Shown here: positions 4,418 to 29,576 of the stretch, piece by piece
Layout: every line of letters begins with the position of its first letter
How positions within the stretch are numbered: position 1 is the first letter of the stretch
The notes under the pieces: model-generated
Told to the model about the DNA's origin: nothing
The model's database searches: none
The model's input: the letters and a program-made list of their open reading frames with translations, nothing else
Assembly (NCBI GenBank): GCA_902812465.1
Contig: CADDZE010000031.1
Span: 1-45,294, forward strand
Source: Acidobacteriota bacterium
GTDB lineage: Bacteria; Acidobacteriota; Terriglobia; UBA7540
DNA: 45,294 nt
Direction of reading: 5' to 3'
Translations under genes and position numbers: made by a program

Positions 4418-7348
4418 ATGACACCTCTGAGGTCTTTAAGCCCTTTTTGCGGGGCCTTCCTAGGCTTGTTCGCTTTAGCGTTGACCGTTTTAGCGGCAAC
4501 GACGCGTGCTCAGACGCTGCAGGTGGGTGGCACTGTGGAGGGTATCGTCCAGGATTCGAGCGGGGCTGCCGTCGATGGGGCGGAAGTGGTGCTGACCAAT
4601 GGTGCCACGGGTCAGACGCGAGTCGCGCACACCGACGAACGAGGTAGCTTCCAGGTCAGCTCGTTACCCGTTGGAACCTACATTCTGAGGGCCCATCATC
4701 CCGGATTTGCGGCCCACGTGCAGACCGGCATCCAGTTGTCGATTGCCCAGACTGTACGGCTGACAATCTCGCTGGTCCCGGCAGCTGTGACCTCCCAGGT
4801 CAGCGTGACCACGCGGCTGCCTTTGATTGACGCCTCTCAAACCACTTCCACTTTCATCGTCGACACGGAAAGGATTGAGGAACTTCCGGTTAGAACCCGC
4901 AATGTGCTGGATTTTGTCCTGCTGGCGCCCAGCGCCGCTTCCTCGGGCACCGTCGCGGCGGGAGCCAGCGCCTCGATCGGATCGAGCGGATTCAGCTTTG
5001 GCGGCCTGCGGGCCAGGAGCAACAGCGTTTCCATCGACGGGCTCGATAACAACGACGAGTATGCGGGCACCAGCCGCACCGAGCTCTCTCCGGAAATGGT
5101 GCAGGAGTTTCAGGTGGTCAATAACGGCCTCTCGGCGGAGTATGGTGGTGCCTCGGGGGGCTCGATCAACGTCGTAACGCGGGACGGGACAAACGACAGG
5201 CATGGGGAAGCGTTCATCTTTGCCCAGACCGGTGTGCTCAATGCTCGCGACGCGGTCGAGAGTCAGCCTTTGAAGCCGCAGCTGGCACGTTACCGAGCAG
5301 GCCTATCGAGTGGCGGTCCGCTGATGGAAAACCGAACCTTTTACTACGCCGCCGCCGAGCAGCAAGGCAAGACGGCGCAAGATGCCTCCGACATGGATCC
5401 CAGTGCCGTCTCAGCGGTCAATCGCGTTCTGGCGGCTGGGGCGTTTTGGGGAATACCAACCCGCCAACTGACATCCGGTTTGTTTCCGGTCGCCCGTAGC
5501 GAAACAGAGGCTTCGGGCAAGCTGAATCATCAGTTCAGCCAATGGCAGTCCTTGATGCTGCGCCATGCCTTTACTAACAATCGGGAAGCTGGAGATGCCT
5601 TCAACGCGGATGGCCTGGCGGACGCGAGCGCCCGTGGCTCGAGCTTTACGCGAGATCACGCTCTGGCAGGGTCGCTCGTTTCTTTGTTATACCACATGCC
5701 GTAAACGATCTGCGATTCCAGGTGGCGGCGCGGCGGGTCACCCTGCGTACAAACGCCTCTTCTCGACCCGAGATCGATATTGATGGGCTGGCACCCTTCG
5801 GCCGGCCGTACGAGGGAAACAGCCGCCGGCGTGAGAATCACTATGAAATTGCTGATACGTTGGCCTTGAGTCGCGGTTCTCATTTCCTCAAGGCCGGAGG
5901 GGTAGCGAACCGCGCCCACCTCGCGTCGGATGCCCCGGACGGGTTCGGCGGCATCTACGCCTTTGCCGACCTAGACGATTTTCTGGCTGGCAGGCCTGAT
6001 TTCTTCCGCCAGGCCTTTGGAGACCCCGACACCGGCTATCAGGTGACCAGCTACGGCGGCTTCTTCCAGGAGCACTGGATCGTGAGCCGAGGCTTCACCG
6101 TAGACCTTGGCCTGCGCTACGATTTCGAGCACTTGCCGCAGGGTTTCAATCAAGATACGAACAACCTCAGTCCGCGTGTGGGAATTGCGTATAGCCCTGC
6201 TGCCCGGTGGGTTGTGCGGGCTGGCTTCGGTATCCTCTACGACCGATACGTGCTGGCGTATTTGAATCGCGCGATCCAGAAAGATGGTGCGCAAGGGTTC
6301 GAGCAGATTGCCTACGGAGCGGCGGCAACGTCTATTTTCCAGCGGACGGCGGGTGGTTCCGCTCGAGAGCCACTGTGGAAAGTTCTGCCTTCTGTGTATC
6401 GTGCCGATCCCCACCTAGCCACTGCCTACAGCGAACAGATGAACGTGGAAGCCGAACGCCAGCTTTCCGCCAATACATTCCTCAGCGCCAATTACCTCCG
6501 CGTGCGGGGCGTAAAGCTGTCTCCCGGATCCGAAATGTGAACCTTATGACGCCGGTGGTACTGACGCGTGAGAACGCGGACGCCCTAGAGATAACGAACC
6601 CCGCGCCGCAACAGCTGGGACGGTACGTGTTTGGCCACGCCGTCTTGATCCGAGATTGGATGCGCTCGAACTGCTGGAGGACTCCGCCAGCTCTAGCTAT
6701 CAGGGGTTTACTTTCGCGCTGAACCACCGCCTGGCAAACGAAATCGAATTCACCGGTAGCTACACGCTTGCAAGGACGCTCGACGATGCCTCAGACTTCG
6801 ACGAACAACCGCAAAACCCCTATAGCCTGAGAGAAGATTGGAGCGCCTCGCGCAACAGCCAAACGCAGCGCTTCGTCTTCAGTGGGCTTTTTGAACTTCC
6901 CTTCGGACAGGTAGAGACCTTGACAGGGCAAGCAGCAGCCACTTCAGTTCGGCCCAATGCCCGGCGGCTGGAGGGGCTGCTTGCTCATATCGAGTTGGCT
7001 CCCATTGTTACGCTGGAAAGCGGCCGCCCCATGAATGCCCTCACCGGGCTCGACTCGAACCGAAGTGGTGCGTATCCGTTCTCCGCGCGCCCCTTGGGCT
7101 TCAAGTGCAACAGCCTGGCCACGCCGGGCATAACGAACGTCGACTTGCGCCTGCTCAAGTATTTTCTTTTTGGCAAACACGCGCGCCTCGACTTGGTCGC
7201 GGAGTTCTTCAATCTCTTCAACCACACGAACATCGTTCAGATCAATTCTCTTTACGGAAATGAACTTCAACCACTGCCCGGTTTCAGGCAGCCGACACAA
7301 GCCCTTAACGCGCGACAGATCCAGTTCTCAGTCGACTTCGAATACTGA
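4418..7348 (+). pseudogene. TonB-dependent receptor (Oar-like) disrupted by three small frameshifts
   Basis: The start is most likely ATG 4418, giving a signal peptide (FLGLFALALTVLAATTRAQ) followed by a carboxypeptidase-regulatory-like beta-sandwich (GTVEGIVQDSSGAAVDGAEV onward) and a plug domain (SVSIDGLDNNDEY, GSINVVTRDGTNDRHG). Frame 2 stops at 5704. Frame 1 resumes at 5701 with VNDLRFQVAARR and runs to 6540. A short piece is in frame 3 (RIRNVNLMTPVVLT), and frame 2 returns near 6640 (RLDPRLDALELLEDS) to the end, IQFSVDFEY, with TGA at 7346-7348. The first and third shifts each look like loss of one base from a short G or C run (CCG-GTA; GCC-CGT). All domains are otherwise complete and about 975 residues would be encoded, so this is either a young pseudogene or partly sequence error. 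It precedes a secreted TPR gene on the same strand. Confidence 0.8.
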
Positions 7349-7425
7349 GATTTCCTTGCCGGGTCGGTGAAACGGAGGATCAGCGGAGCGCGAGGCCGAG
7401 CACGCCGCCGGGAAACGGTCCCCAA

Positions 7426-7434
7426 TGCTAGAAT
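7426..7434 (+). promoter_or_regulatory. Extended -10 promoter element before the TPR gene
   Basis: TGCTAGAAT matches TG-n-TAnAAT and lies 29 bases before ATG 7464. It overlaps an upstream in-frame ATG (7425), indicating that the shorter start is the real one. No good -35 box is visible, as allowed for extended -10 promoters. Confidence 0.4.
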
Positions 7435-7463
7435 CGACAGCGGGAGTTGTCGAAATCTTCGCC

Positions 7464-9473
7464 ATGCTTGACAAGAGGCTGCGTTCCCGTCCGCGTTCTG
7501 GCTGGCCTCTGCTCTTGGGCGCATTACTCACGTCCCTGAGTACCGCGCCAGCTCAGACTGCCAGCGAACTGCCGCGGTTGACCCCCGAGATTGTGGCTCA
7601 TTGGCAGGCGGCCGAAGATGCGCGGAGGCGCGAGGACTATGTGACGGCGGTGCGCGAATACCGCCAAGTGATCGCGCTCAGCCCCCGCTTCGCTGAGGCG
7701 TACCAAAACCTCGGGCTCGTCTATCAACTTGAAGAACGATGGTCTGACGCGATTGCGGCGTTCCTTCAGGCGCTTTCTCTCAAGCGTGACCTGCCGGGAG
7801 CCAATCTGTTTCTGGGAATCGACTACTGCCGGAACGGGGAAGCGCATCGTGCCATGCCTTACTTGACTAGGGCCCTCCGGGAGAAGCCTGAGGTGCCCGA
7901 AGCGTGGTCCTGGCTGGCTACGGCCCAGGAAATGCAGGGCGAGGTCGCGGCAGAAATTGCAACGCTGCAAAAGGGGCTGTCAATCCACGATCGCGACATC
8001 GATCTGTTGTATCTCCTGGGCCATGCCTATGAGGCGCTGGGTAAGCAAGCGGTTGACGCTGCCAGCGCGGTCGATTCGGATTCCGTCAGCCGGGAAGAGT
8101 TTTTGGCGGAAACGTACGCGAGTGATGGCTACTGGTCCGAAGCGCTGGCGCATCTGCAGAGTGTACTGGCTCGGGCGCCGGGGCGGATGGGCGTTCACGC
8201 CGCTACTGGGGAAGTGCTGCTGCATGCCGGGCGCTTGAGCCGTGCCCTGGAGCAGTTTAACGCCGAACTCCAAATCCATCCTGGCAACCTGAGAGCCCGG
8301 GTGCGGCGTGGGGAGATCGAGCTGTTGCAAGGTCTGCTGGATGCGGCTTTGGCTGACTGGTCCGAGGCACTCAGTCAAGATGTGGCCCGCACCGAGGCGA
8401 TCCTAGGAGTCCGGGAGACGGGATTTGGGGATGCCGGACGGGAACAGCTTCCGGATGCCCTGCGCCAGAAGTTGGACGGGTTGCGGCCTAGCCTCGCTTC
8501 GCGGTCCGGGGCCGCCACCGAGCTGGTCCTGGCTTTCATCGCTTCGCAGAATGGCGCCGTGGTACCCGCTCTGCCGAACCTCGCGGAGTCCAGTGCAGTT
8601 GCTGGTCCGAGTAGAACCTGCAGTGTTCCAGCGCTCGAGAAGTGGCTCGCCAGCGACGAGCTGGAGCTAGCCGCGCAATGCGGCCCGCGCCTCCTGACGG
8701 GGGAATCTCCTTTGCCGTTGCGCGTGGCAACTGCCCATGCCCTGTTGGAGACGTCGCACCCCGACGCAGCGCTGGTCATCCTTGAAGCCGCCCCGCCTGC
8801 CCAGGCCCGCTCGCCGGAGCTCCTCTACGAGAAGGCGCGGGCCTACAAGAAAATGGCGCTGGCGGCCTACCTGAGGCTCTATGCCACCGCCCCGGACTCT
8901 TACCGCGCCCACCAGTTGAACGGCGATACCCACGCCGCGCGCGGCGAGGACGAGAAGGCCATCGAGGAGTACCAGCTCGCGCTACGCCAGCGGCCCCATC
9001 TTCCTAATCTGCACTATGAAACCGGTCGGCTGCTGTGGAAGAACTTTCGCACCGCTGAAGCCCGTCGCGAGTTTCAGGCTGAACTCGAGGTGAACCCGCG
9101 CCACGCGGGCGCGCTGATCTCGATGGCGACGATTTACCTTTACGAACATCAGCCCCAAGAAGCGTTGGCGTTGCTCCAGCGGGCGGCGCGCCTCGAACCC
9201 GGCAATGCGGATGTTCATCAGTTCCTTGGGGCTGCCCACCTCCAGTTGCAGCAATACGCCATGGCGGTAAAGGAGCTGAAGCTGGCCGCGCCGCACGACG
9301 AGGACGGCAAGATCCATTACCAGCTGGCCAAAGCCTACCAGGGCCTGGGACTAAAGCAGCAGGCGGCGCAGGAGTTTGCTACCTCCAGCGCCCTGAATCA
9401 ACGCTTTCATTCGCGAAATGCGGAGCACGCCGACCGCCTGGCGGCCGCCGAAGCGGCGCTAAGGGAACCGTGA
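7464..9473 (+). CDS. Secreted TPR-repeat protein (669 aa) downstream of a TBDR
   Basis: ATG 7464 begins a classical signal peptide (RSGWPLLLGALLTSLSTAPAQ), so the protein is exported to the periplasm or outer membrane. The mature part is almost entirely tetratricopeptide-like helical repeats with the usual G/A/Y/P pattern: an N-terminal block (residues ~35-150), a central, less regular block (~200-430), and a C-terminal block (~440-640). The C-terminal block contains the segment SYRAHQLNGDTHAARG...LHYETGRLLWKN, which is shared in style with the TPR protein at 17310. TPR proteins are scaffolds; no enzymatic motif is visible. It directly follows a TBDR and is followed by a convergent gene. I infer a partner role for the receptor, by analogy with TPR-fold SusD proteins, but no such function is shown. 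Confidence 0.85.
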   Translation: MLDKRLRSRPRSGWPLLLGALLTSLSTAPAQTASELPRLTPEIVAHWQAAEDARRREDYVTAVREYRQVIALSPRFAEAYQNLGLVYQLEERWSDAIAAFLQALSLKRDLPGANLFLGIDYCRNGEAHRAMPYLTRALREKPEVPEAWSWLATAQEMQGEVAAEIATLQKGLSIHDRDIDLLYLLGHAYEALGKQAVDAASAVDSDSVSREEFLAETYASDGYWSEALAHLQSVLARAPGRMGVHAATGEVLLHAGRLSRALEQFNAELQIHPGNLRARVRRGEIELLQGLLDAALADWSEALSQDVARTEAILGVRETGFGDAGREQLPDALRQKLDGLRPSLASRSGAATELVLAFIASQNGAVVPALPNLAESSAVAGPSRTCSVPALEKWLASDELELAAQCGPRLLTGESPLPLRVATAHALLETSHPDAALVILEAAPPAQARSPELLYEKARAYKKMALAAYLRLYATAPDSYRAHQLNGDTHAARGEDEKAIEEYQLALRQRPHLPNLHYETGRLLWKNFRTAEARREFQAELEVNPRHAGALISMATIYLYEHQPQEALALLQRAARLEPGNADVHQFLGAAHLQLQQYAMAVKELKLAAPHDEDGKIHYQLAKAYQGLGLKQQAAQEFATSSALNQRFHSRNAEHADRLAAAEAALREP

Positions 9474-9486
9474 GCTTGGGCTCCAG

Positions 9487-9511
9487 CCGCGCGTTCAGTT
9501 CGATCGCGCGG
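9487..9511. terminator. Hairpin between convergent genes
   Basis: CCGCGCG (9487-9493) and CGCGCGG (9505-9511) form a perfect 7-bp stem with an 11-base loop in the 94-base gap between two converging genes. There is no T-run on either side, so it would be a weak or Rho-assisted bidirectional terminator. Confidence 0.35.
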
Positions 9512-9567
9512 AGAAGTGCCGCCCGCAACGGTAGGGTTCGATCGGAGCTTAATTTTAAACTGGCGCC

Positions 9568-11853
9568 CTAGTACTCCGCCTTCACTCGGACGTATTCCCT
9601 TGGCCCCAGCCGTATGGGTTGGGAAACCGGTGTACCGTCCGTGGTGAGTTTCAGGGTGCGTCCTTCCGCGGCGGGGATCGTGATCCGAGATGATCGTGGG
9701 CTGCCGGTTGGATTGAACAGGATGAAGTTGAGCTCCCGCGGCGGGAATAGACTGGCGTCAAAAATGTCCAGGAGATCCAGGTTCACTAGCATGAGTTCGC
9801 GATCGTCCACCGTTCCCAGCGCCTCAAACATCAAGTAGAGCCAGAGGACTTCGCCGGCGCCGTATATTTCCTTTCCCACGCTGCCGGTTTGCCCGCCGAG
9901 CTCGAGCGTGCCCAGGTTTTCATAAGGAATGAACAGACACTGCGACTGCTTACCGGACGCCCCGCTGCAGGACTCGAAGAAGTAGAAGTTGTTGCGTCGT
10001 TGCTGGTCCATGAACCGCAGCAGCCCCTCCACGACCAAACCGCGGCGCATAATGGCGGTCCAGGGCAGGATTGCTTCCACATTCTCCTTGAACGCCGGGT
10101 ACAGGATCGACGCGGCGGCTTGCGCCATGCCGCGAATGTCATGAGTCGTCTGGCTGGGGTCGCTGTACCAGTAGAACATCCGCAACTGCTCGTAAAGCAG
10201 GTAGCGCGCAATGGTGGGCAGGCCCAACTCCGCCGCGGCTAAGGCACCGAACGCCAGTTCCTGGGGTTCATGAAAGAGCTGGCTAGCGCGCACCGTCGCC
10301 ATCACTTCGACCGCGCGGCGAGCCTCTTCCCGGTACTTCGCCTCTCCGGTCAGGTGGTGGGCGATCAGTCCGGCCCAGGCGTACAACCCCCCGACGGCGT
10401 AGTTTGTGCCTGCTCCCTGTTGTTCGAGCGTATCGGTCCGGTAGTAGATGGGGAAGAGATAGCCGTAGCGCCGGGCTATCTTGATAGCGGTTTCGTAGGC
10501 GCTCAGAAAGTGGGTGACTAAGTTCCGAGAGCCTGAGAGTGCGCCAATAAGCGGATATTTGATCAGGCTGTTCTCGAATGGATACCAGGAGTCCGCTACT
10601 TCGTTCTCGGGCCGCAGAAAGTCATTACTGATGCTTTGCGCGTCGCCATGATAGAAGAGCGGCATGCTCGCGAGCAGGTGGCGGACGGTCTCCTGGAAGG
10701 CGGGATCTGGCTGCACTCGGAGGTAAAGCAGCGACGGCCAGAGGACATCCGTCATGGTCATGAGCTCAAAGTTCTGTCCCGTTTCGTGCCAGAGCTCGGA
10801 GGAGGCGCGCACGTACGCGCGCAGGCCCCAGTACCCATTCACCGTGATCAGCGAGGTGTCTCTCTGCTGAAGGTCATTCACGGTGCCGGCAGAGATTTGT
10901 TTCCAGCTTGTGGCACACGGTGGCCAATCAAGCTTCTCATCGAAGAGGGGAAGCAAGGCCTCCATCCACCGAGCCACGGCCTGCTGTTCATTCAGTAGGG
11001 TGCGCAGAGGGCGCTGCAAAAGCCAGTAAGTGAAGCCGACCTCGCCAGCAGGCAGAAGGTCGCCCGTCGCCTGATCCGCCACCAGGCCGACTCCGAGCGT
11101 CTGGTTGCCGTCCTTTTCCAGGCGGGCAACCATCGAGCAGCGGTAGGCGAGAAAGCGGGGAATATTCTGCAGCGACATCCATCCCATGCTGCTGATGTCG
11201 AAATACAGCATGGTTTCGACGCCGCGCGTAGCGTCGAGCAAGTAGACCGCAGGCAAGTCGTTCCCCCAGGCACCCAGAGAGTTCCGAGTGGGCTGCTCGA
11301 GCAGCACGCGTCTCCAGCTTGCTGACTGCCCCTCCATCATGGTCGAAGAGGAGCTGAGCCACACGATGATCTGCGGCTCGACTCCGGAGTCGTGCTGCAG
11401 GCACAGGGGCTGAGGCAGCTCGAGCCGAATCTGGAAGCGGAACCAAGGCTCGGCTTTGCTGATTTCGGCTCGCCACGCGTATTCCACTGACTTGCCGTCA
11501 CGGCCTCTCCCGTGGCCTTTGCCTTCGGCAGTGATCGCCGATTCTAGTCGCTCCTGCCGCACGACCTCGAGCCCAAAAGATGGACCCGTGATCCATGGAA
11601 CCTGCGGAAGCGTGGCCGCCGCCCATTTCCCAGCCTGCCGCACGAAGCTGCAAAATCCTGCAAGCCCGCTCAGATTGACAAACTCGACGCGCTGCTCAGG
11701 ACCTTCGATGGCCAGGGGCTCGAAATTAGAGCCCGCAGCAGCGTCACTGGCATTGGGTTCCGGCCGCCCAGCGTGCGCTACGAGCGCGCCGCTCGCGGCA
11801 CTGCGGACCAGTATTTGAACGAAGGCACGCCGATCCATTGGTCGCAAAATCAT
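9568..11853 (-). CDS. Tat-type secreted protein, possible (alpha/alpha)-barrel glycan-active enzyme
   Basis: The N-terminus carries a twin-arginine-like signal (MDRRAFVQILVRSAASGALV; an ATG at 11838 five codons downstream is an equally good start). Residues ~50-280 look like a beta-rich domain (WFRFQIRLELPQPLCL, ETMLYFDISSMGWMSL). Residues ~330-680 are predicted largely helical with many Trp and Tyr (NGYWGLRAYVRASSELW, ADSWYPFENSLIKYPL, FPIYYRTDTLEQQG), the style of six-hairpin glycosidase, lyase or epimerase toroids. The last ~80 residues again look like a small beta-sandwich (RELNFILFNPTGSPRS). That architecture, beta domain plus helical toroid plus C-terminal beta cap, is common in glycoside hydrolases and polysaccharide lyases, but I do not recognise a family or catalytic residues. 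It lies 232 bases downstream of an intact TBDR on the same strand, so it may act on that receptor's ligand. Confidence 0.7.
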   Translation of the reverse strand: MILRPMDRRAFVQILVRSAASGALVAHAGRPEPNASDAAAGSNFEPLAIEGPEQRVEFVNLSGLAGFCSFVRQAGKWAAATLPQVPWITGPSFGLEVVRQERLESAITAEGKGHGRGRDGKSVEYAWRAEISKAEPWFRFQIRLELPQPLCLQHDSGVEPQIIVWLSSSSTMMEGQSASWRRVLLEQPTRNSLGAWGNDLPAVYLLDATRGVETMLYFDISSMGWMSLQNIPRFLAYRCSMVARLEKDGNQTLGVGLVADQATGDLLPAGEVGFTYWLLQRPLRTLLNEQQAVARWMEALLPLFDEKLDWPPCATSWKQISAGTVNDLQQRDTSLITVNGYWGLRAYVRASSELWHETGQNFELMTMTDVLWPSLLYLRVQPDPAFQETVRHLLASMPLFYHGDAQSISNDFLRPENEVADSWYPFENSLIKYPLIGALSGSRNLVTHFLSAYETAIKIARRYGYLFPIYYRTDTLEQQGAGTNYAVGGLYAWAGLIAHHLTGEAKYREEARRAVEVMATVRASQLFHEPQELAFGALAAAELGLPTIARYLLYEQLRMFYWYSDPSQTTHDIRGMAQAAASILYPAFKENVEAILPWTAIMRRGLVVEGLLRFMDQQRRNNFYFFESCSGASGKQSQCLFIPYENLGTLELGGQTGSVGKEIYGAGEVLWLYLMFEALGTVDDRELMLVNLDLLDIFDASLFPPRELNFILFNPTGSPRSSRITIPAAEGRTLKLTTDGTPVSQPIRLGPREYVRVKAEY

Positions 11854-12085: not shown

Positions 12086-15000
12086 TCAGTAGCTGATCTT
12101 CAAGCCGAATTGAATAGTTCGCGGACCACTCGCACTTGTCACAGCGCCAAACCCGCAAGAAAAGGGGCCAGGACACCCTGGCGACCCCACTGGCTGGAAG
12201 GGGGTTCCAAGGGGAGTGGCAAAAGCTCCGTTCGGCGCTTGGTAAATGTGCCGGTTGAACAGATTGAAGAATTCCGCTCGGAAATCCAGCCTGGCGTTTT
12301 CACCGAGCAGGCGTGTCCGCTTCTCGATGACAAAGTCTTCATTGCGGCCTCCCCAAGTACGGGCGTGGTCGAGGGCACGCGGCTCGTCGCCGAAGGTGAA
12401 GGGGGCGGGCACTGCAAACGCTGCCGCATTGAAGAAGGGTGTCTCAGCCGGCTGGAAGCTGCCACTCTTGTTGGTCTGCGGGACACCGGGAATCACATTG
12501 ACGCGGGCGCCCGCACCGGCGACCTGGCATCCGCCAAATAGCACGCCTCCGGCCGTGCCGCTGCACGAGGAATAGACGGCGGTTGGGACACCCGAGCTAT
12601 AGGTCAGGATGCCGCCGACGGACCAGCCTCCCACCACGCGGTCGAGCGCACTCGTCTGGTTCAGGTAGCGCTTACCGTGGCCCACCGGCAGCTCGTAGAA
12701 GAAGCTCGTCACCAGGCTCTGAGGTGTGTCCAGCTGGCTGACGGCCTTTTCCGCCCGCCGGTTGTACGAGTTCTGACCAATAAAGCCACCGGTTCCGGTA
12801 AAGCCGGACACACCAGGGCCCAGGGAATCGGCGTCAGTGATGTTCTTCGAAATCGTATAGGAGACGAGCATGCTGAGGCCGGCACTGAAGCGCTTGGTGA
12901 CCCGGGCCTGCATCGAGTGATAGGTCGAGTTGCCGGTGCGGTCTGGACCAAACGACTGATCCTCGCCGTTGAAGTTGCCGTACATCGGGAAGGGGCGCAG
13001 GGCCTGGGCAATTGTAGCCCCGCCGCCCCACAAAGTGGCGAAGCTGGGGAACGGCACCTTGACTCCCGCGGCGATGGCATTGGGACAGGCGCCGTCGGAG
13101 AGGCAACTAACGTTCATGCCCAGCTCGCTGCCGAGCGCCAACCAGCGTGGGTCCACCTGGTTGGTGAGGATGTTGTACGCCGGCAGATGCGTGCCTTTCG
13201 ACCCCACGTAGGCCACGTCCGCGAGCAGATTGGCGGCCACTTGACGCTGTACGTCCAAGTTCCAGGACTGAATGTCGCCAGGCCGCCCAGAGTTGGCGGG
13301 CGCCACAATCACACCCCCATTACCGTTCTGGCCATCGGGCGTGAAGGGTCCGGATGGCGGCAGGATGTGAGGCACTCCCTGGTCGATCTGGATAGGGCTG
13401 GAGAAATTTTCTTTGTTGAAGAAGCCCAGGCCGTCCTGGTCGGCGAAGGAAGGCTCCTTCAGCGGCTCGTAGAAGATACCGTAGCCGCCACGCAGGACCG
13501 TCTTCTCGTCCACCCGGTAGGCAAAGCCCAGACGCGGGCCGAAGGCATGAGTGAAGACATCTTGAGGCCGCTTCTTCCCGTTGCGTCCCGGTCCCTTGCC
13601 GAAATAGGTGTAAGCTCCGGGAAGGTTGCCGGCGCCTGGGTTGGGCAGCGAGGGATCAACCACGGAGAACCGGTCGAACGCCTCGGTGGCGGGGATATCG
13701 TAGTCGTAGCGCAAACCGTAGTTGAGGGTCAGCCTGGGAGTGAGCTTGTAGGAGTCTTGGGCGTAGAAGGCGAAGTCCTTATAGCGCACGCCGCTGAAGG
13801 CACCATAATTCAGAGTGGTCGTGTCAACGAGCCCGAAGAGCGCGCTGGCGATAGCGTTACCTCCCACCCCGCTGGCTGTGCCGGTTGAACTCGTTTCCGG
13901 GCTGTTGAAATCAAATTCGCCGGCGGACTGGGTGAGGCGGCGAACATTGAACTGAAGGGCGCGGAGCTCGCCTCCGAACTTCAGGTTGTGCTTCCCCCGC
14001 ACCCAACTCACAGCGTCGGCGAATTGGAAGACATTGTCCGCGAACTGGGAGTCGCCGCAATTGTTGAGCACGGAGTCGTAGGGCGTGCCATGGAACTTAA
14101 TGCACGGGAAAGTGGTATTCTGCACTCCCGTCAGTCCGAGCTTAGAGGGCCAGTTCTGGCCAATCCCATTGGAGAGTTCGCCGCGCCACCTCCGGCTGAA
14201 GCCCATCAGGAAGTGGTTCAAGACAGAGGGCGTGAAGGTGTAGTCGTCACTGAAGCGCGCGTAGCGGGTGTTTTGCGGCGTTTGCCCGCCAAAGATGGGG
14301 CCCAAGGATACGATGGACTGGTTGTTGGTGTTGTCGTAGTCGAGGCCTGCCGAGATGCGCTGCCTGTCGGAGACGTTCTGGTCCACCTTGATATCAAAGA
14401 GGTTGGCGATGGTCTGCGAGGTCTGTCTTTGGAACACGTTGTTGGTCAGACCGCCGTTGGTTGGGGGCAACAGAGCAAAAACCTTGCTCATCACCGAGCT
14501 TGGCTTGAAATTCGGATCATTGGATAACGTGTTCTGCGGAATTGGCGCGTGGGTAACCGGATCATAGATCTGCTGGTTCGGGTCGTTGCAGAAACCGGCC
14601 GCGTTGAAGCCGGCGGTGCAAAGGGCAGAAAGGTTTCCCTGGCGGAAGGCTTCGTTGGGAAAACTTTGCGCTCCGCTGCTCCCGGTGTGGAAGCGGAACC
14701 CCTCGTAGTCGAACATGAAGAACGTCTTATCCTTACCGTTATAAATCTTGGGTAGCCAGACGGGGCCTGAGACGAGGAAGCCAAAGTCATTCTGGATGTC
14801 CAGGTTCTTGGGCACGCCGGCGGTGTTGTTGTTCCAGCTGTTGGCGTCGAGTGCGCCGTTGCGGAGGAAATCGTAGGCGTCGGCGTGAAACTGGTTGGTG
14901 CCGGATTTCATCGTCAGGCTGACGATGGCATCGCCGGATTGCCCGTATTCGGCCGAGAAATTGCTCTGGAGCGTCTTGAACTCCTGAATCGCTTCTGGGG

Positions 15001-15785: not shown

Positions 15786-15906
15786 TTAAGTCGGCGCAAA
15801 CACGCCTCTCCGCGCAGGCCGTTGAAGGGTAGATTGGCCCGGAGAGAGGGAGCGAGTGCATAGGAGTGATTTCAAGCCGGGACTAATGATAAGAAAGTCT
15901 CACCTG

Positions 15907-15915
15907 TGGTATCCT
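15907..15915 (+). promoter_or_regulatory. Extended -10 promoter of the regulator-TPR operon
   Basis: TGGTATCCT (TG-n-TATnnT) lies 84 bases before ATG 16000. It falls inside the longer open frame that starts at 15856, which supports the shorter gene model. Confidence 0.35.
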
Positions 15916-15999
15916 TGCTCAAGTCTACTCGGGGGTTACAGCCTATTTAAGGTCCGCTGGCAGGCTGCGGCGCAGGAAGCGGAGTGTGAGGCTCGAGCA

Positions 16000-21141: not shown

Positions 21142-22476
21142 CTATTTCATGATCGCCTGGTAGGGCAGCAGGATCGCCTTGCGGTCGAGATCCAGCCCTC
21201 CCGTTGGGTGGAGCTGGGCCATGAAGACGACCACCATGTCCTCCTTCGGGTCAATCACAAAGGAGGTGTAATAGAAGCCGCCCCAGTAATACGAACCCAA
21301 GGAGCCAAGCTCGGTGAGAAACTTCGGCTCGCTGATCACGCCGAAGCCGAGGCCGTAACCCAAATCGTCCGCTTTGCCCTGCACGTGATTCTGGTTGATC
21401 AGTTCAACAGACTTGCGGCTGAGCAGGCGCGTGCCGCCGAGCTCGCCGCCATTCAGCAGCATCTGGCAGAACCGGTAGTAGTCCTGCGCTGTCGAACAGA
21501 GCCCTCCGCCGCCTGAGAAGTAAGTACGCGGGCCGCGGTAGGGATAGTCCGCCGAATAGGAGAACTGGCCCTCCTTCACCGTCTGGCCATCCAGAATCGG
21601 CTGCAGTCCCTTCTCGGGGTCATACGTGTAAGCCGTGGCGAGCCGGCCTACCTTCTCTGGGGGGAGGAAAAACTCGGTGTCTTTCATGCCGAGCGGTTTG
21701 AAGATGCGCTTTTCGAGGAAGCGGTCGAGCGGCATGCCCGAGACAACCTCGACGAGGTAGCCGAGCACGTCATCCGCCAGGCTGTATTCCCAAAGGTCGC
21801 CGGGTTGGAACAGGAGGGGTATTCCGGCCAGCTTCTTCACCGCCTCGCCGATCGTTCCGGGTTGCTGCAGCAATCCGGCACCGATGCCCGCCTCGATGTA
21901 AGCCTTCCCGAGGCGCGGATTCCACTGGTAGGTCAAGCCGGAGGTGTGGGTGAGGAGGTAGCGGATGGTGATGGGGCGCTTGGCCGGCACCGTGGCGCCG
22001 GGAGGCGAGGTCCTATCCTGCGGCCAAGGCGGATCGAGCACCTGCATGTTTTTAAATTCGGGGATGAAGTCAGAGACGGGCTCGTTCAGTGTGAACCGCC
22101 CTTCTTCATAGAGCATCATCACGGCGACGCTGGTGATCGGTTTGCTCATTGAGCAGATGCGGAAGATGGCGTCCGTCCGCATCGGCTTCTTGCTTTCGCG
22201 ATCGGCCATGCCTACAGCCTTGAAGTAGACGATCTTGCCATGGCGCGCCACCAGGCTCACCCCGCCGGCGATTCTGCCCTCGTCGACACTGCGCTGGATC
22301 GCGCTGACGATGCGGTCAAGGCGCTCGGAAGACAGGCCGACATCCTCAGGCTTCGCGGCGGTTCCGGCCGCTAGCTCCGGCCGCGCCTTAGCCGCCTTGG
22401 CTAGCTGAAGCGGAGCTGAAAGAACTTGCCAGGGCAGCAATGCTGCGCCCATCACCAGGATCAGTCTTCGTCGCAC
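21142..22476 (-). CDS. Exported beta-lactamase-fold serine hydrolase (EstB / class C beta-lactamase family)
   Basis: A member of the beta-lactamase-related serine hydrolases (esterases, D-aminopeptidases, penicillin-binding-like enzymes). I chose GTG 22476 because GGAGGAG lies eight bases upstream and the product then begins directly with a signal peptide (RRRLILVMGAALLPWQVLSA). Residues numbered from this GTG: the nucleophile motif SMSK is at ~109-112 (S109, K112), and a Tyr motif YSL is at ~231-233 (WEYSLADDVLGYLVE), as in EstB-type esterases rather than the YxN of true beta-lactamases. The conserved HTSGLTY block lies at ~177-183. This argues for an esterase or peptidase function rather than antibiotic resistance. 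A minus-strand amidohydrolase gene lies 139 bases upstream, so the two may be cotranscribed. The substrate is unknown. Confidence 0.88.
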   Translation of the reverse strand: MRRRLILVMGAALLPWQVLSAPLQLAKAAKARPELAAGTAAKPEDVGLSSERLDRIVSAIQRSVDEGRIAGGVSLVARHGKIVYFKAVGMADRESKKPMRTDAIFRICSMSKPITSVAVMMLYEEGRFTLNEPVSDFIPEFKNMQVLDPPWPQDRTSPPGATVPAKRPITIRYLLTHTSGLTYQWNPRLGKAYIEAGIGAGLLQQPGTIGEAVKKLAGIPLLFQPGDLWEYSLADDVLGYLVEVVSGMPLDRFLEKRIFKPLGMKDTEFFLPPEKVGRLATAYTYDPEKGLQPILDGQTVKEGQFSYSADYPYRGPRTYFSGGGGLCSTAQDYYRFCQMLLNGGELGGTRLLSRKSVELINQNHVQGKADDLGYGLGFGVISEPKFLTELGSLGSYYWGGFYYTSFVIDPKEDMVVVFMAQLHPTGGLDLDRKAILLPYQAIMK

Positions 22477-22615
22477 TGAGTTTCTCCTCCGCGAATCGAT
22501 TTCCTTACGCTCTTGCTTCACGGCCTCATTTGACCTCTGACAGGTCCCCGCGGTCACTCGCCCAGCGCTTCCGCTTCCTCACTCAACAGGAAACGAAGGG
22601 CTGTCCCTAGAGGCC

Positions 22616-23932
22616 TCACCGCGCGGTCTGATTCTTGTAGATCACTCCGCCCTTCATGACAAACTTCACGTTCTCGAGAACGCTGGGATCGGCCAGCGGA
22701 TCGCCCTCCACCGCGATCAGGTCGGCGAACTTGCCCGGCTCGAGCGTTCCCACGCGGTCCTGCCAGCCAAGCAAATCCGCCGCGTTGACGGTAGCCGCCT
22801 GGATGGCCTGTAGGGGAGTGAGCCCCAGGTTGACCATCACGGGAAACTCGTGAGCATTCAGACCGTGGGGATAGACCGCTGCATCGGTGCCGAAAGCCAC
22901 CTTGACGCCTTCGCGGAAAGCCCGCGCCACGTTGCGCCGTGCCGCCGGCATCACCACCTTGGCCTTTTCAATCATGTCTTCGGTCAAACCCATCTTGGGG
23001 TAGTTCTCCATGAACCAGTCCATCAGGTAAAGGGTGGGGACGAGGTAAGTGCCGTGCTCCTTCACGGCGCGGATGCCGTCCTCATCAATAAAGCTGCCAT
23101 GCTCGATGGAGTCGACGCCCGCCTCAGCAGCGTCGCGGATGGCGATGGCACCGTGGGCGTGGGCTGCCACCTTGCGGCCCAGTCTGTGGGCGGTAGTGAT
23201 GATGGCACGCATCTCCTCAGGGCTGTATTGCTCGAGCGCCGGGTTATCGCCCTTCGAGAGCACACCGCCCGAGGCCATGAACTTGATCAGGTCGGCGCCG
23301 TACTTGATATCCCAGCGGACCTTGGCGATGACGTCGGGCACGCTATCCGCTACGCCGTCAGCGCTGGCCTCAAATTCCGGCGCGAGCAGGTTGATATCGG
23401 CATGGCCGCCGGTAATGGAGAGCGGCGGGCCCGAGACCAGCATGCGCGGACCGGGCACGTCGCCCGCGTTGATGGCATCGCGCAGGGCCACGTCAGCGAA
23501 GCCGCGGGCGCCCACGTTGCGCACCGTGGTGAACCCAGCCTCGAGCGTGACCCGCGCGTTGTGAGCGCCGAGCAGCGCCTCACGGGGCACCGACAGGCTC
23601 AGCGCCCGGTAAGCGCCGAGATAAGGCGACATCGTCAGGTGAGTGTGGCAGTCAATGAGGCCGGGCAGTACGGTGACCTTGCTTAGGTCGATCAGCTGCG
23701 CGCCCTTCGGTACGTGCGGCTCGATCTGGGCCGCGTCTCCGATCTCCTGGATCCGCTGGCCTTCGATCAAAATGATCTGGTCAGTGCGATATTGCCCCGT
23801 CTTAACGTCCAGCACCCGGCCTGCCCTGACGGCAAGCGTTCCCCCCGGCGCCGCGGCCTCCTGGGCTGCCATCCATGCGGTTGAGGTGAGCAAAGATGCT
23901 GCCAGGGTCGCCCGTAGTACCGCCCGTTTCAT
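22616..23932 (-). CDS. Exported metal-dependent amidohydrolase (imidazolonepropionase/prolidase-like)
   Basis: A member of the amidohydrolase superfamily, group with imidazolonepropionase-like and Xaa-Pro dipeptidase-like enzymes that hydrolyse C-N bonds of small molecules or dipeptides. Residues 1-24 are a signal peptide (ATLAASLLTSTAWMAAQ), so it works outside the cytoplasm. The binuclear metal site is complete: H96 and H98 (DCHTHL), the bridging Lys K217 (DLIKFMASGGV), H258 (VAAHAHG), H278 (SIEHG) and D350 (FGTDAAVYPHG). The length of 438 aa is normal. GAGGAGGAACTGG directly precedes ATG. Upstream are two copies of a direct repeat. Together with the downstream serine hydrolase, this suggests a periplasmic peptide or amide scavenging pair. 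Confidence 0.9.
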   Translation of the reverse strand: MKRAVLRATLAASLLTSTAWMAAQEAAAPGGTLAVRAGRVLDVKTGQYRTDQIILIEGQRIQEIGDAAQIEPHVPKGAQLIDLSKVTVLPGLIDCHTHLTMSPYLGAYRALSLSVPREALLGAHNARVTLEAGFTTVRNVGARGFADVALRDAINAGDVPGPRMLVSGPPLSITGGHADINLLAPEFEASADGVADSVPDVIAKVRWDIKYGADLIKFMASGGVLSKGDNPALEQYSPEEMRAIITTAHRLGRKVAAHAHGAIAIRDAAEAGVDSIEHGSFIDEDGIRAVKEHGTYLVPTLYLMDWFMENYPKMGLTEDMIEKAKVVMPAARRNVARAFREGVKVAFGTDAAVYPHGLNAHEFPVMVNLGLTPLQAIQAATVNAADLLGWQDRVGTLEPGKFADLIAVEGDPLADPSVLENVKFVMKGGVIYKNQTAR

Positions 23933-24034: not shown

Positions 24035-24110
24035 TTCGCCATGGGTGCAGCCACTGGGGGATCCTAGGTATAGGGCAGCTGAAGTTCCGAGTAGAGGCGC
24101 GGCTCGAGTT

Positions 24111-24443: not shown

Positions 24444-24473
24444 GGAGGGGCAGGTTGCGAAGCCTGCCCCTCC
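24444..24473 (-). terminator. Strong hairpin downstream of the minus-strand TBDR
   Basis: GGAGGGGCAGG (24444-24454) and CCTGCCCCTCC (24463-24473) pair perfectly over 11 bp with an eight-base loop. It lies 27 bases beyond the receptor stop codon. There is no T-run after the stem on the minus strand, so it may be a Rho-assisted terminator, a 3' stabiliser or a REP-like element. Confidence 0.5.
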
Positions 24474-24499
24474 TCACAAAAACACAACAGCCTACGAGT

Positions 24500-27400
24500 T
24501 CAGAAATTCAGCTTTAAGCCAAACTGAATCTCGCGCGGATCGTTGGCCCCGGTGATTTGCCCAAAATTGCCCGCCCCGATACTAGTACCGATACTGTTGA
24601 AAGACGGGTGATTCAGGAAATTAAAGAACTCCGCCCTGAATTGGTACCGCAAACGCTCGGTAAGAGGTCCGTTCTTGTAGAGAGCGAAGTCCCAATTCCG
24701 CGTGGGAGGACCCCAAACCGAGTTTCTCCCAGCGTCGCCGAAGGTACCGGGCGCCGCGTTCACGAAGCAAGCGGTGTTAAACCACTCGGCCACGCTGCGA
24801 GGGGCGTTGTTGGGATTGCATCCGGCCAAGCGGTTGGCAGCCTGGCCGAAGTCCGAGTTCACTCCTGCCACGTCGCCGGTTGAATTGAAGACGGTAGCGG
24901 GAGTGCCGCTTTCTAAGGCAATCACGCCGGCGATCTCCCAACCTCCCAAAGTCTTACTGATGAAATCATTCCTTCCCCGGAGGAAGGGCAGGTCATAGAC
25001 GTAGTTCGCCAGGAAGATGTTGCGGCGCCCCCAGTCGGCGGGGCCAAAGTTGTAGCGGAGGTCGTAGGTGTTGATGGCGTTGGCGTAGAGGTCGGAGCCG
25101 TAGTCAAAAGTATTGGAGTAAGTGTACGCGATGCCGAACTGCAACCCCTTGTTCAAGCGTCGCTGCACGCTCACTTGCAGGGAGTCGTACCTGGAATTGG
25201 CATCATTCAACCCGACCGTGAGGCCACCCAAGCCCGAGTAGCGGAAGCAGGCAGCCGGCTGATTCGCACAGACGGGGTTGTGGGTCTTGGTGCCAGCGAA
25301 GAGTTGGTTCTGGTCCGCGTTCACCACCAGGTGGCGTCCGCGCGTGGCGACGTAGCCCACTTCTACCAGGGTGTCCTGCGGGAACTGGTGCTGGATGGTA
25401 AGGTTCCATTGATAGACCGCGGGAATCTTGGCGATCAGGTCGCCGCCCGTGACCGGTATCGGCAATTGCGGGATCTGTCCTCCGCTGGAGGCAATGCAAT
25501 TCCGCTGGGCATCCAACTGGCCGCCCGGGCAGTCGGCCTTGCCTCCCAAGGTTTCGGCTGCCAGCTGGAAGGGCGAGTTGCCCCCCATCAACGTAACGTC
25601 ACTGAGGGTGAAGTGATTGTAGAAGATGCCGCCGCCGGCGCGAATCGACGTGGTTCCGTGGCCAAACGGATCCCAGGCGAAACCGAGGCGGGGCTGAAAC
25701 AAGTCATAGTGTTTCTGGAAGATTTCGGGTGTCAGGCCTCGCTGCAGCCCGTAGTTGCGAAGCAGGGTGTTGATGGCGTCGTAATTGGACGCCGTCAGCG
25801 GCTGGCCGAAGACGGCAAAGTGCCCGATGGCTTCGCGGGGCAACTGGTCGCACGGCACCGAGATGCCGTTGTAGGGGTTGCCGCCGATTACGAAACCCGT
25901 GGTGGGGTCGACCACCTGCTGGATACCAGGCAGGAACGAGTAGTTGAGGGGATTGAAAGTGGAGAAATTGCACCAGCGGCTGCGGTAGGGCGGGAAATAA
26001 TCCCACCGCAGACCGCCCTGGATCGTGAGGTGGGGCGTCACCTTCCAGCTATCCTGGCCGAATACGCCCTTCTGCCAGGCTACCCAAGGGGTGTAGTTGC
26101 GCCAGCCGAGCTCGCTGTAGGTGCCGAAGTTGCCCAGAAAGGCGTCGGCGAGGGGAGCTCCGGTGGTGGTCGCCGTGTTGGAAGCGTCAAAGGTAAAGGT
26201 GCCGTTTAAGTTGTTCCCGATGCCGCTGCTAGATCCTGGTGTCACACGGACTTGGTCTCGGTCGTTCTCGCCGTCCTGTTCGATCCACACGCCTGCCTTG
26301 ATGAGGTGGCTGCCCCGGATCTTGGTCACAATGTCCTGAAAGGTGAACACCTTGCCGACACTTCCCGACGGGTACGGCAGGCCGCTGATGGAGTCAAAGC
26401 CGCTAACATTGACGGTGGGAATCTTCCCCGCGATGTCTTTGCTCGCGTCACCGAAGATGTAAGGGAAGTTAATTCCGAAAGCGCTGCGGTTTAATCCCGC
26501 CCCGGTGTTGAGATTGACGTGAACGATGTCTTCTGTGGCGGTGAAGGCGAAATCGTTCAGAACCGTCGGGCTGAAGTTGGTGGTGAGGTCGAAAGTTCCG
26601 CCGCGCTCGGGAAATTGTGGGGTTATTTGAAGCAGTTGACTGCTGCCCGAAGTCCCCCACGACGGCCTAGCATCCTGTGTGTAGTGACGCAGTGCCACGG
26701 CCAGATGAGACTTGATGCTCTCCATTTGGTAGTCCACCTTAATGGTTTCCTTACGCTCGTTGGAGGGGCTTCCAATCTCCTTCACGAAGTTGTTGCCCAA
26801 CCCGGAAGTGGTGGGCATTGCCATGGCTTGAACGAACGCGGCGCCGTTGGGACTCCACAGAGAAGAGGGGATAGTGTCGTTGGGAAACCGTTGTCCGGCC
26901 ACTAACCCGTCGACGCCGTTCAAGTAGGCAGGAACCTTGGGACAGGGCAGATTGGCCGCGCAGTAGTCGGAAAAGTTGCCCTGACGAGCAAGCGGATCCG
27001 GAACGGTGGCCACCGAGGTGCTGGTCGTGCGGATACGGCTCCACTCCTGCGACCAGAAAAAGAAGAGCTTGTTCCGGTGAGGAATAACGGGTCCGCCGAA
27101 ATCGTAGCCGAAGTTGTTAAACTTCAGAATGCTGACGGTCGGAGAGAAGAAATTGCGAGCGTCGAGGTCGTCATTCCTCAAAAACTCGTAGACGCCGCCG
27201 TGGTACTGCTGGGTGCCGGACCGCATTTGCAGGAGCACTTGACCTCCTGCCCCGCGGCTATATTCGGGCATGTAGCCGTTGGTGACGATGTTAATCTCAC
27301 CGATGGCCTCCAAGCTGGGCGCCGCCACCATGGCGCCGTTGGCGCGCGTCCGAGTGGAAGGTGAGCCTTCAATTTGAACGTTATTCGAGTCGCCGCGCAG

Positions 27401-27976
27401 CCCGTTGACATGCGTATCTTGCGTGGCAAATAGGTTCATCGACTGAAAGCTGTTGAAGGAAAACGCTTGCACGACCCCAGGCTGGAGGGCCAGGAGGGAG
27501 GCGAAGTTGCGCCCGTTGACCGGCATCTCCTCAATCTGCGTCGAGTTCACCACGCGCGAGACCTTGGCATCTTCGGTCTGCACGGTGAGCGCCTGCGCCT
27601 GCACCTCGACCGTCTGCGTCACCTGTCCAACCTCCATCGTGCAGCTCACCTGCGGCCGGCCGGCCGGATCGAGGATGACGCCGGCGGATGTGCACCGCTG
27701 GAAGCCTTCCTTCTCCGCGGTGACGTCATAAGTTCCCGCAGGAAGATTGGGTACGACGAAGTAGCCGGATTCGTTGGTCGTGGTGACTTGTGAGGCCCCG
27801 GTTTCCTTGTTGGTGATGGTGATCCTGGCGTTGGGGATGACGGCGCCGGTCTTATCGGTGATGGTTCCGCTGATCGTGCCGAGAGTTTGAGTCTGGCTCA
27901 AACCTGAAATGGCGCAGCAGAGTATCAGCCCACCCGCCAGTGCGGCGAGCAGGTGCGCAGCCACGTGTCGAAACAT
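24500..27976 (-). CDS. TonB-dependent receptor, Oar-like (1158 aa)
   Basis: Intact receptor. GGAGG precedes the ATG by eight bases. Residues 1-28 are a signal peptide (LLAALAGGLILCCAISGLSQ). Residues ~32-120 are the carboxypeptidase-regulatory-like domain (GTISGTITDKTGAVIPNA, GYFVVPNLPAGTYDV). Residues ~130-265 are the plug (IEEMPVNGRNFASLL, GGQVLLQMRSGTQQYHGG). The barrel follows with typical strands (LFFFWSQEWSR, HLTIQGGLRWDYFPPY, VEVGYVATRGRHLVV) and the ending IQFGLKLNF with C-terminal Phe. A secreted TPR protein is encoded 229 bases upstream on the same strand, and a strong hairpin lies downstream. It differs in sequence from the receptor at 12086, so a different ligand is likely. Confidence 0.93.
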   Translation of the reverse strand: MFRHVAAHLLAALAGGLILCCAISGLSQTQTLGTISGTITDKTGAVIPNARITITNKETGASQVTTTNESGYFVVPNLPAGTYDVTAEKEGFQRCTSAGVILDPAGRPQVSCTMEVGQVTQTVEVQAQALTVQTEDAKVSRVVNSTQIEEMPVNGRNFASLLALQPGVVQAFSFNSFQSMNLFATQDTHVNGLRGDSNNVQIEGSPSTRTRANGAMVAAPSLEAIGEINIVTNGYMPEYSRGAGGQVLLQMRSGTQQYHGGVYEFLRNDDLDARNFFSPTVSILKFNNFGYDFGGPVIPHRNKLFFFWSQEWSRIRTTSTSVATVPDPLARQGNFSDYCAANLPCPKVPAYLNGVDGLVAGQRFPNDTIPSSLWSPNGAAFVQAMAMPTTSGLGNNFVKEIGSPSNERKETIKVDYQMESIKSHLAVALRHYTQDARPSWGTSGSSQLLQITPQFPERGGTFDLTTNFSPTVLNDFAFTATEDIVHVNLNTGAGLNRSAFGINFPYIFGDASKDIAGKIPTVNVSGFDSISGLPYPSGSVGKVFTFQDIVTKIRGSHLIKAGVWIEQDGENDRDQVRVTPGSSSGIGNNLNGTFTFDASNTATTTGAPLADAFLGNFGTYSELGWRNYTPWVAWQKGVFGQDSWKVTPHLTIQGGLRWDYFPPYRSRWCNFSTFNPLNYSFLPGIQQVVDPTTGFVIGGNPYNGISVPCDQLPREAIGHFAVFGQPLTASNYDAINTLLRNYGLQRGLTPEIFQKHYDLFQPRLGFAWDPFGHGTTSIRAGGGIFYNHFTLSDVTLMGGNSPFQLAAETLGGKADCPGGQLDAQRNCIASSGGQIPQLPIPVTGGDLIAKIPAVYQWNLTIQHQFPQDTLVEVGYVATRGRHLVVNADQNQLFAGTKTHNPVCANQPAACFRYSGLGGLTVGLNDANSRYDSLQVSVQRRLNKGLQFGIAYTYSNTFDYGSDLYANAINTYDLRYNFGPADWGRRNIFLANYVYDLPFLRGRNDFISKTLGGWEIAGVIALESGTPATVFNSTGDVAGVNSDFGQAANRLAGCNPNNAPRSVAEWFNTACFVNAAPGTFGDAGRNSVWGPPTRNWDFALYKNGPLTERLRYQFRAEFFNFLNHPSFNSIGTSIGAGNFGQITGANDPREIQFGLKLNF

Positions 27977-28205
27977 TTCGGTACCTCCGGTCCCGATTTG
28001 GAAATGCCCGACACGCGACGCAGCGAAGGAGCAGGATGTTCCGGCTGTATTGTCTTGTCAGTCCATCGGCTTTATTCGAACCGTTTCGGCAGAGTTCTGG
28101 AAAGCCTTATATTAGTACACCTGTCAAGAGGCCGGCGGTCTCATTTGACTCTTTGGGTTAACCCACGCTGGATCAGCAGGTTGAAAGACGCGGCTGGCTG
28201 GGCCG

Positions 28206-29576
28206 CTAGGGGCGCACGCGCAGTTGCGCCAGCAACTCGTCCGGCACAATACGGCGCAATTGCGGGTCCCCCTTCAGACCCTCGCTGAGCTCGCTCCGCG
28301 CTTCTGCCGTCAGGCTCCCGCTCCTTGACGCGAGCACCAAGCCCAGTTCGACATGAGACGTAGCCATCTCCGGTTGGAGCAGGAGAGCCCGGCGCAATTC
28401 CGTCTCGGCATCGGCCCAGCGCTGCTGCCGGGCGAAGGCCGTGCCTAGGTTCAGATGGGCCGAAGCCAGACCCGGCCGAATGGCTACGGCAGCGCGGAAA
28501 TGCTCGATGGCGGCGTCGATTTGCCCCGCACTCAGCAGGACATTGCCCCAATTGTTGTGAGCTTCGGCAAAGCCTGGCTGGCTACGTACCGCGGCCGCGA
28601 ACTCTTGGCGGGCCTCCTCCGGACGATGCAGACTCCAGAGGACGCCTCCCAAGTTGTTGTGAGCCTCTGCATCCTCGGGCACGACAGCCAGCGCGCGCCG
28701 GAAGGCCTCCGCCGCTTCCTCCAGCCGGCCCGTGTGCCAAAGATCGAGGCCGCGGTTGTTCTCCTCGAGCGCCCGCTGGCGTAGCGTGTTTTTGCGAGCG
28801 AGCTCGTGCGCCAACGCGAACCATTTCGAGGCCTCCTTAACCTTTCCCAGGCGCTCGAGTGCGGTCGCCAGGCCATTGACGGCGGGCAGGGAATCCGGAT
28901 GGGCGCGGCACGCAGCGCGGAAGGCCGCCGCGGCCTCCGCGAACGCCCCCTCGTGAAGCAAGGCCTCGCCCAAGCCTTCGCGTGCTTCCGGATATTCCGG
29001 CTGCCGTTGTAAAGCCTGGCGAAACTGCGCCTCTGCCGCCGCCATGTCGCCCTGCTGCAAACGGACTAGACCCAGGCCGTAGTGAGCTGGCGCGCTTTTG
29101 GAGTCGGTCTCAAGGATGGTCTGGAATTCCCGGGCGGCAGCATCGAAATCGCCCCGGCGAAATAGCATGTCACCCAACTCGAGGCGAGCAGGCAGGTACT
29201 TCGGATCGGCGGCCAGGGCACGGCGGAAATGAGCTGCTGCCTGATCCCACTGGTTCTGGTCAGCGGCGACTAGTCCTTTGCGGTACCAGGCGACTGGAAG
29301 GTAGGGATCGAGGGCCAGCGCGCGATCCAGTGCGGCGGAGCTACCGCCACGATCACCTGCCGAATCGAGCGCCGTGGCTAGCGAGAGATAGGCCGCGGCC
29401 GAGGCTGGATGCGCGCGAACGTCCTCACGCGCGACGGCAACCGCGGCAAGGACGGAGCCGGGGGAGTCTTGGCCCGCGCCATGCAAAGTGGCCGCACCTG
29501 CCAGGCAACATGCCACAACCACGAGCCGCCACCCTTTCGTGGCTCCAAGGCTGCGTTCAGCACTCTTGGTTATCAA
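28206..29576 (-). CDS. Secreted TPR-repeat protein (about 456 aa) upstream of a TBDR
   Basis: The start is uncertain. TTG 29576 has AGAGGGA about seven bases upstream and gives a signal peptide (GWRLVVVACCLAGAATLHGAG). A longer open frame reaches 30122 but its N-terminal extension is low-complexity, lies antisense to the decayed channel gene and looks non-coding. The mature protein consists of TPR repeats (AAYLSLATALDSAGDRGGSS, PVAWYRKGLVAADQNQWDQA, AEAHNNLGGVLWSLHRPEEA, ASAHLNLGTAFARQQRWADA), with a short tail (RRIVPDELLAQLRVRP). It is followed on the same strand by an intact TBDR, the third TBDR-TPR pair in the window. A periplasmic or outer-membrane partner of that receptor is the likely role. 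Confidence 0.82.
   Translation of the reverse strand: MITKSAERSLGATKGWRLVVVACCLAGAATLHGAGQDSPGSVLAAVAVAREDVRAHPASAAAYLSLATALDSAGDRGGSSAALDRALALDPYLPVAWYRKGLVAADQNQWDQAAAHFRRALAADPKYLPARLELGDMLFRRGDFDAAAREFQTILETDSKSAPAHYGLGLVRLQQGDMAAAEAQFRQALQRQPEYPEAREGLGEALLHEGAFAEAAAAFRAACRAHPDSLPAVNGLATALERLGKVKEASKWFALAHELARKNTLRQRALEENNRGLDLWHTGRLEEAAEAFRRALAVVPEDAEAHNNLGGVLWSLHRPEEARQEFAAAVRSQPGFAEAHNNWGNVLLSAGQIDAAIEHFRAAVAIRPGLASAHLNLGTAFARQQRWADAETELRRALLLQPEMATSHVELGLVLASRSGSLTAEARSELSEGLKGDPQLRRIVPDELLAQLRVRP

Follow-up and report, generated by a model that had tools for sequence, protein, structure and literature searches.

Exported TPR proteins recur beside Oar-like TonB-dependent receptors in Acidobacteriota and may be SusD-independent partners

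Introduction

Do the Oar-like TonB-dependent receptors (TBDRs) of Acidobacteriota work with a partner protein, as SusC does with SusD? Acidobacteriota are dominant soil bacteria, and the question matters because their genomes carry dozens of Oar-like TBDRs each, with no SusD in the genomes tested. It is raised by a contig of 45,294 nucleotides from an Acidobacteriota bacterium (assembly GCA_902812465.1, contig CADDZE010000031.1), referred to below as the window, in which TBDR genes lie close to genes for exported proteins made of tetratricopeptide repeats (TPRs). The initial annotation of the window had described a TBDR/TPR pairing occurring three times in 25 kb, and had proposed a SusC/SusD analogue. 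We find that the pairing is real and above chance in the genomes tested, that paired genes stay linked in different genera and families, and that the TPR proteins are not SusD and mostly not lipoproteins.

TPR genes lie near TBDRs more often than expected

The source genome (3.9 Mb in 190 contigs) contains about 50 Oar-like TBDR loci (PF25183) and 66 TPR gene clusters, and its closest named relatives are Acidobacteriota metagenome-assembled genomes bearing the labels Terriglobia, group 11, group 13 or group 18. Only genes similar to a single reference TPR protein were counted in the TPR clusters; distant TPR genes are missed. The statistics of this genome were built from match positions and individual stretches of contigs, and the chance expectation is a fraction of length rather than a shuffle. 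Fourteen of the 66 clusters were found within 3 kb of a TBDR, compared to 4.9 expected (2.9 fold, p = 3×10−4). By our own arithmetic, the figure is 11 of 61 for about 4.5 expected when the five clusters of the window are removed.

For three other genomes, the expectation was obtained by rotation of the TBDR positions, which keeps TBDR clustering and ignores contig borders. At the same distance, the excess was 4.9 fold in G009 (23 of 55 clusters, 4.7 expected, p about 0.001), where 20 of 55 clusters, for 3.7 expected, were still scored within 2 kb. It was 3.2 fold in G128, a single-contig complete genome from another family than that of the window (10/27, 3.1 expected, p = 0.001), and 3.4 fold, a weak effect, in G005 (6/31, 1.8 expected, p = 0.03). 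As a negative control, response-regulator domains were counted in G009, and none of the 40 came within 5 kb of any TBDR. The comparison with chance that the initial annotation had called for thus gave an excess in all four genomes. Among the 19 directly adjacent TBDR-TPR pairs of G009, the TPR gene was directly downstream on the same strand in 12 cases, upstream on the same strand in 4, and divergent in 3. The commonest layout is a TBDR followed by a TPR gene on one strand, with gaps of 10 to 214 bp.

A six-gene set is conserved around one receptor

Both intact TBDRs of the window, at 12086 and 24500, have the Oar-like architecture, a CarboxypepD_reg domain followed by an OMP_b-brl_4 barrel, each far above cut-off (Table 1). 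Three TBDRs, one of them broken, had been counted initially. The two intact genes and the broken one at 4352-7348 were confirmed, but the count was one short, as a fourth, also broken, TBDR is present.

The receptor at 12086 is the centre of a set of six genes, together with ENZ (9568), REG (15856), TPR-A (17310), TPR-B (7425) and TPR-C (18753). This set recurs in five further genomes, from three families, and none of them lacks more than a few of its members. All six genes are present in loci L095 and L112, with TPR-A placed apart from REG in L112; the TPR-A of this locus is seen whole in L096. L178 contains ENZ-TBDR and, divergent from them, REG-TPR-A-TPR-B-TPR-C. L179 contains the same genes except TPR-C (the stretch examined stops at TPR-B), and L180, from a complete genome of the third family, has the set without REG and TPR-A. 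In L098, TBDR-REG-TPR-A are found with different flanking genes. TPR-B had been assigned to the broken TBDR (then placed at 4418), but its orthologues travel with a 12086-type TBDR in five other genomes, and TPR-B therefore belongs to the 12086 set. We rejected it as a partner of the broken gene, so that one of the three pairings first proposed was misassigned.

Table 1. Genes of the window discussed in the text
Feature	Position	Strand	Remarks
Fourth Oar-like TBDR, also broken	~367-2328		stop and frame changes; absent from the initial annotation
Disrupted Oar-like TBDR	4352..7348	+	at least 2 frame changes; considered and left out of the set
TPR-B, exported, member of the 12086 set	7425..9473, likely start 7464	+	orthologues in L095, L112, L178, L179, L180
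ENZ, Tat-type exported	9568..11853	-	no Pfam match; model of low confidence (pLDDT 49.6)
Oar-like TBDR, centre of the conserved set	12086..15637	-	CarboxypepD_reg + OMP_b-brl_4, ~636 bits
REG, putative membrane-anchored regulator	15856..17301	+	one transmembrane segment, residues ~192-210; C-terminal domain predicted extracytoplasmic
TPR-A, exported, ten TPRs	17310..18491	+	8 bp behind REG
TPR-C, exported, member of the 12086 set	18753..20363	-	orthologues in L095, L112, L178, L180
Serine hydrolase, beta-lactamase class C / esterase superfamily	21142..22557	-	follows the dipeptidase at 58 bp; below every equivalog cut-off
Xaa-Pro dipeptidase-type amidohydrolase	22616..23932	-	downstream of TBDR 24500, same strand; NCBIfam NF051886, 508 bits for a cut-off of 500
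Second intact Oar-like TBDR	24500..27976	-	CarboxypepD_reg + OMP_b-brl_4, ~636 bits
TPR-D	28206..30122, likely start near 29576	-	upstream of TBDR 24500, same strand, gap of 229 bp

TBDRs and their TPR neighbours diverge together

The TBDR at 12086 shares 65-68% identity with the other TBDRs of the set, and about 35% with the next clade. More generally, a paired TBDR was closest to those TBDRs of other genomes whose paired TPR protein was of the same type (63-82% identity for most), and other TBDRs were only about 30-43% identical to it. TBDR identities correlated with TPR identities in a comparison of 12 pairs (Mantel r = 0.71, p = 5×10−5). Since pairs from one genome fall into different TBDR clades (window and L018; L098 and L100; L095 and L105), the species tree alone does not explain this correlation.

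The TPR proteins differ from SusD

No match to the SusD_RagB profile (PF07980) was obtained in 26 genomes, the source genome included, with a positive Bacteroides control, and homology to SusD by sequence was therefore rejected. Signal peptides and lipoboxes were called with a heuristic script. A plain Sec-type signal was scored in 39 of the 47 TBDR-adjacent TPR proteins of the source genome and G009, and a lipobox-like signal in none of 18 in the former and 2 of 29 in the latter. In the window, Sec-type N-termini were found on the TPR proteins at 7425(7464)-9473, 17310-18491 and 28206-~29576, the last one read by eye from a later start, in agreement with the signal peptides first reported for these three proteins. 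A periplasmic position fits the TPR proteins better than that of a surface lid.

The proteins at 7425, 17310, 18753 and 28206 are canonical multi-TPR proteins, with profile matches to TPR families only. The predicted model of TPR-A (pLDDT 92.6 over 393 residues) is all helical, with ten canonical TPRs occupying nearly the whole mature chain and neither a loop-rich SusD-type subdomain nor an inserted ligand-binding one. By contrast, the SusD-family protein BT_3984 has four TPRs, cryptic in sequence, joined to a large loop-rich subdomain (PMC2954216). The fold of TPR-A is closest to general TPR superhelices (OGT TPR domain, MamA, PilF/PilW), and SusD chains are absent among the 50 best fold matches listed, which leaves room for a partial resemblance.

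A segment shared by TPR-A and TPR-B had been noticed, and this part of the initial annotation stands: 17310 and the C-terminal part of 7425 are 34% identical over 236 residues (E = 2.3×10−26), a kinship beyond the TPR background. Relatives of both proteins exist in other genomes, and the motif P-[DNS]-S-x3-H-x-L-x-[GA]-[ED] is common to the two. The HY..G portion, on the other hand, is largely ordinary TPR consensus. The HY..G..W motif was discarded as a mark of TBDR partners for lack of specificity: in the source genome, a loose PDSxxxH pattern is carried by 7 of the 20 TPR proteins near TBDRs and by 6 of the 45 others. As a separate observation, relatives of 17310 in genomes of the same family often occur singly or in 2-3 tandem copies, convergent with a TBDR; tandem arrays were seen in L100, L103, L104, L105 and L097, with the convergent arrangement where the contig reaches the TBDR.

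Overall, the proposed SusC/SusD analogy is partly supported, as a matter of logic and not of the protein itself. A SusCD-like logic is plausible, given the enrichment and the presence of glycan genes and regulators of sugar type in several of the paired loci, but SusD_RagB is missing, lipoboxes are nearly so, and TPR-A is a canonical ten-repeat protein.

Possible roles of the TPR proteins

The reading that we favour, with a probability of roughly one half, is that the TPR proteins are dedicated Sec-exported partners or scaffolds of particular TBDRs, working in the periplasm. The receptor would import an oligomer, glycan-derived at the 12086 set and probably peptide-derived at 24500. The TPR superhelix would bind the TBDR from the periplasmic side (at its plug or its N-terminal CarboxypepD_reg domain), the exported enzymes encoded in the locus, or both, and such binding would keep uptake and cleavage together, along with signalling in loci that have REG. 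We infer the periplasmic location, the physical contact, the scaffold role and the substrates. A periplasmic partner was ranked first because the lipobox is lacking, several TPR proteins belong to one set, and pairs extend to loci without REG. Tentatively, and with less confidence, this may be widened to a SusD-independent uptake complex proper to Acidobacteriota, where several TPR superhelices in the periplasm would dock on the inner face of the TBDR and couple import to periplasmic enzymes and a transmembrane regulator; it might be common in the phylum.

Several observations weigh against a dedicated partner. No TPR neighbour was found for 34 of the 50 TBDRs of the source genome, which implies that a partner is not needed by every receptor. 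The set occurs in genome G128 with neither REG nor TPR-A. Signal peptides are unspecific in the source genome (16/18 TBDR-near compared to 36/47 other TPR proteins); exported TPR proteins being common away from TBDRs too, the signal was rejected as a mark of partners. The contrast between the neighbours of TPR-linked and TPR-less TBDRs, described below, is qualitative and concerns the 25 commonest families only. Finally, it is possible that the correlated divergence of TBDRs and TPR proteins reflects the co-inheritance of linked genes, which is also expected to produce it.

Alternatively, the TPR protein may relay receptor occupancy, or a periplasmic substrate, to the external domain of REG, which would control the divergent TBDR operon. 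The 8 bp between REG and TPR-A in the window, their direct adjacency in L095, L098, L178 and L179, the single transmembrane segment and conserved C-terminal domain of REG, and its divergent orientation relative to the TBDR in six loci (window, L095, L098, L178, L179 and L112) all argue for such a relay. We nevertheless consider it unlikely, as most TPR-TBDR pairs have no REG, TPR-A is away from REG in L112, and the match of REG to a DNA-binding domain is below threshold (Trans_reg_C, weak, in one orthologue, E = 0.065, 13.7 bits for a cut-off of 26.2). More doubtful still is a TPR protein placed at the cell surface, where it would catch ligand above the barrel of the TBDR in the manner of SusD on SusC. 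The TBDR-then-TPR gene order, similar to that of susC-susD, the glycan context of the loci, and the absence of SusD itself speak for a surface role. Against it, the TPR protein, missing a lipobox in nearly all cases, would have no known route to the surface, TPR-A is modelled without an inserted ligand-binding subdomain, and three different TPR proteins occur in one set.

Among the many TPR folds to which TPR-A aligns are PilF/PilW of the type IV pilus (Z about 19). This is compatible with a role in envelope assembly, where TPR proteins would help the very large Oar-like barrels to fold or insert, as the TPR domains of BepA or PilF/PilW do. Such a role is improbable in our opinion: most TBDRs lack a neighbouring TPR gene, and several TPR proteins per locus with locus-specific pairing are ill-suited to a general chaperone. 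Lastly, TPR and TBDR genes might have no functional link and simply collect in the accessory regions of genomes rich in both, as the high TPR content of the source genome and the weak enrichment in G005 would allow. However, the excess persists in rotation tests that retain TBDR clustering, the spacing of the pairs is operon-like, the set is kept across three families, and the response-regulator control was zero, so that we give this explanation very little credit.

Comparison with known systems

These loci resemble the SusC/SusD systems of Bacteroidota in having a TBDR with an N-terminal carboxypeptidase-regulatory-like domain, an adjacent TPR-containing partner, enzymes and a regulator in the locus, and commonly the TBDR-then-partner order. 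They differ in the partner, which has no SusD_RagB domain, mostly no lipobox, canonical TPRs and probably a periplasmic position, in the presence of several TPR partners per locus, and in the regulator, which by the searches made is not of the SusR or hybrid two-component type. In Proteobacteria, TBDR-linked carbohydrate loci with enzymes, LacI-type regulators and no SusD exist (e.g. in Caulobacter, and the CUT loci of Xanthomonas). They are not known to have a dedicated exported TPR protein; recurrent TPR genes are what sets the loci described here apart from them. The OGT TPR domain, MamA and PilF/PilW share their fold with TPR-A, but act in other cell contexts without receptor linkage, and this likeness says nothing on the function of TPR-A.

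Searches of open-access papers gave no earlier account of TBDR-TPR pairing in Acidobacteriota. The account of the Candidatus Solibacter genome lists, in its treatment of paralogue groups, ASPIC/UnbV (CRTAC1-type) and CnaB-type families as abundant, and TBDR-TPR pairing is not described in that part (PMC3174227). Our results suggest TBDR nutrient loci of SusC/SusD-like layout in which the partner is a TPR protein unrelated to SusD and probably periplasmic. If the TPR partner is indeed dedicated, it would offer a handle for predicting substrates locus by locus, and would make uptake loci findable in uncultured genomes where SusCD searches come up empty. It would also raise the question whether helical partners of TBDRs arose two separate times, on opposite sides of the outer membrane.

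Other genes of the loci

ENZ orthologues are rare (6 of 151 genomes of the class), and all five outside the window adjoin the set; in L095 and L112, ENZ has GH130 genes next to it. Only the N-terminal part of the low-confidence ENZ model is usable: residues ~42-310 resemble a beta-super-sandwich found in glycan-active enzymes, of the galactose-mutarotase/GH97/GH36 type (Z about 15, rmsd 3.5 over 207 residues), and a mostly helical part is predicted to follow. Sequence searches with ENZ and REG retrieved no solved structure and no NCBIfam family above cut-off. In the REG family (window, L095, L098, L112, L178, L179), the N-terminal part and the C-terminal domain are conserved, the latter with a QGLQQEGTEAAG motif; the PDB gave no match to this family, and Pfam none above cut-off.

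The 24500 locus comprises, on one strand, a TPR gene, the TBDR, the Xaa-Pro dipeptidase and the serine hydrolase, which indicates that the substrates are not all glycans. Elsewhere, the neighbours of TPR-linked TBDRs include GH130, GH43, GH39, GH127, an MGH1-like glycoside hydrolase, xylose-isomerase-like proteins (AP_endonuc_2), GFO/IDH/MocA oxidoreductases and LacI/ROK-type regulators. Among the commonest neighbour families of TPR-less TBDRs (L010-L047) were M28 and S9 peptidases, not glycan enzymes, a hint of peptide uptake. ASPIC/UnbV-FG-GAP proteins made up 9 of 72 neighbours of TPR-linked TBDRs in G009. Genes of this CRTAC1 type, many with Tat-like N-termini, were seen within 5 genes of 13 of the 21 TBDR-TPR loci (G009, L113-L129), and a TBDR-TPR-CRTAC1 triad is possible in this genome.

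Further along the window (32822-40384), a TPR lipoprotein scoring above the XrtA/PEP-CTERM PrsT cut-off (371 compared to 312 bits) is followed by genes that, by eye, are sigma-54 regulator-, polysaccharide export- and chain-length-like. This region is probably an exopolysaccharide/exosortase locus.

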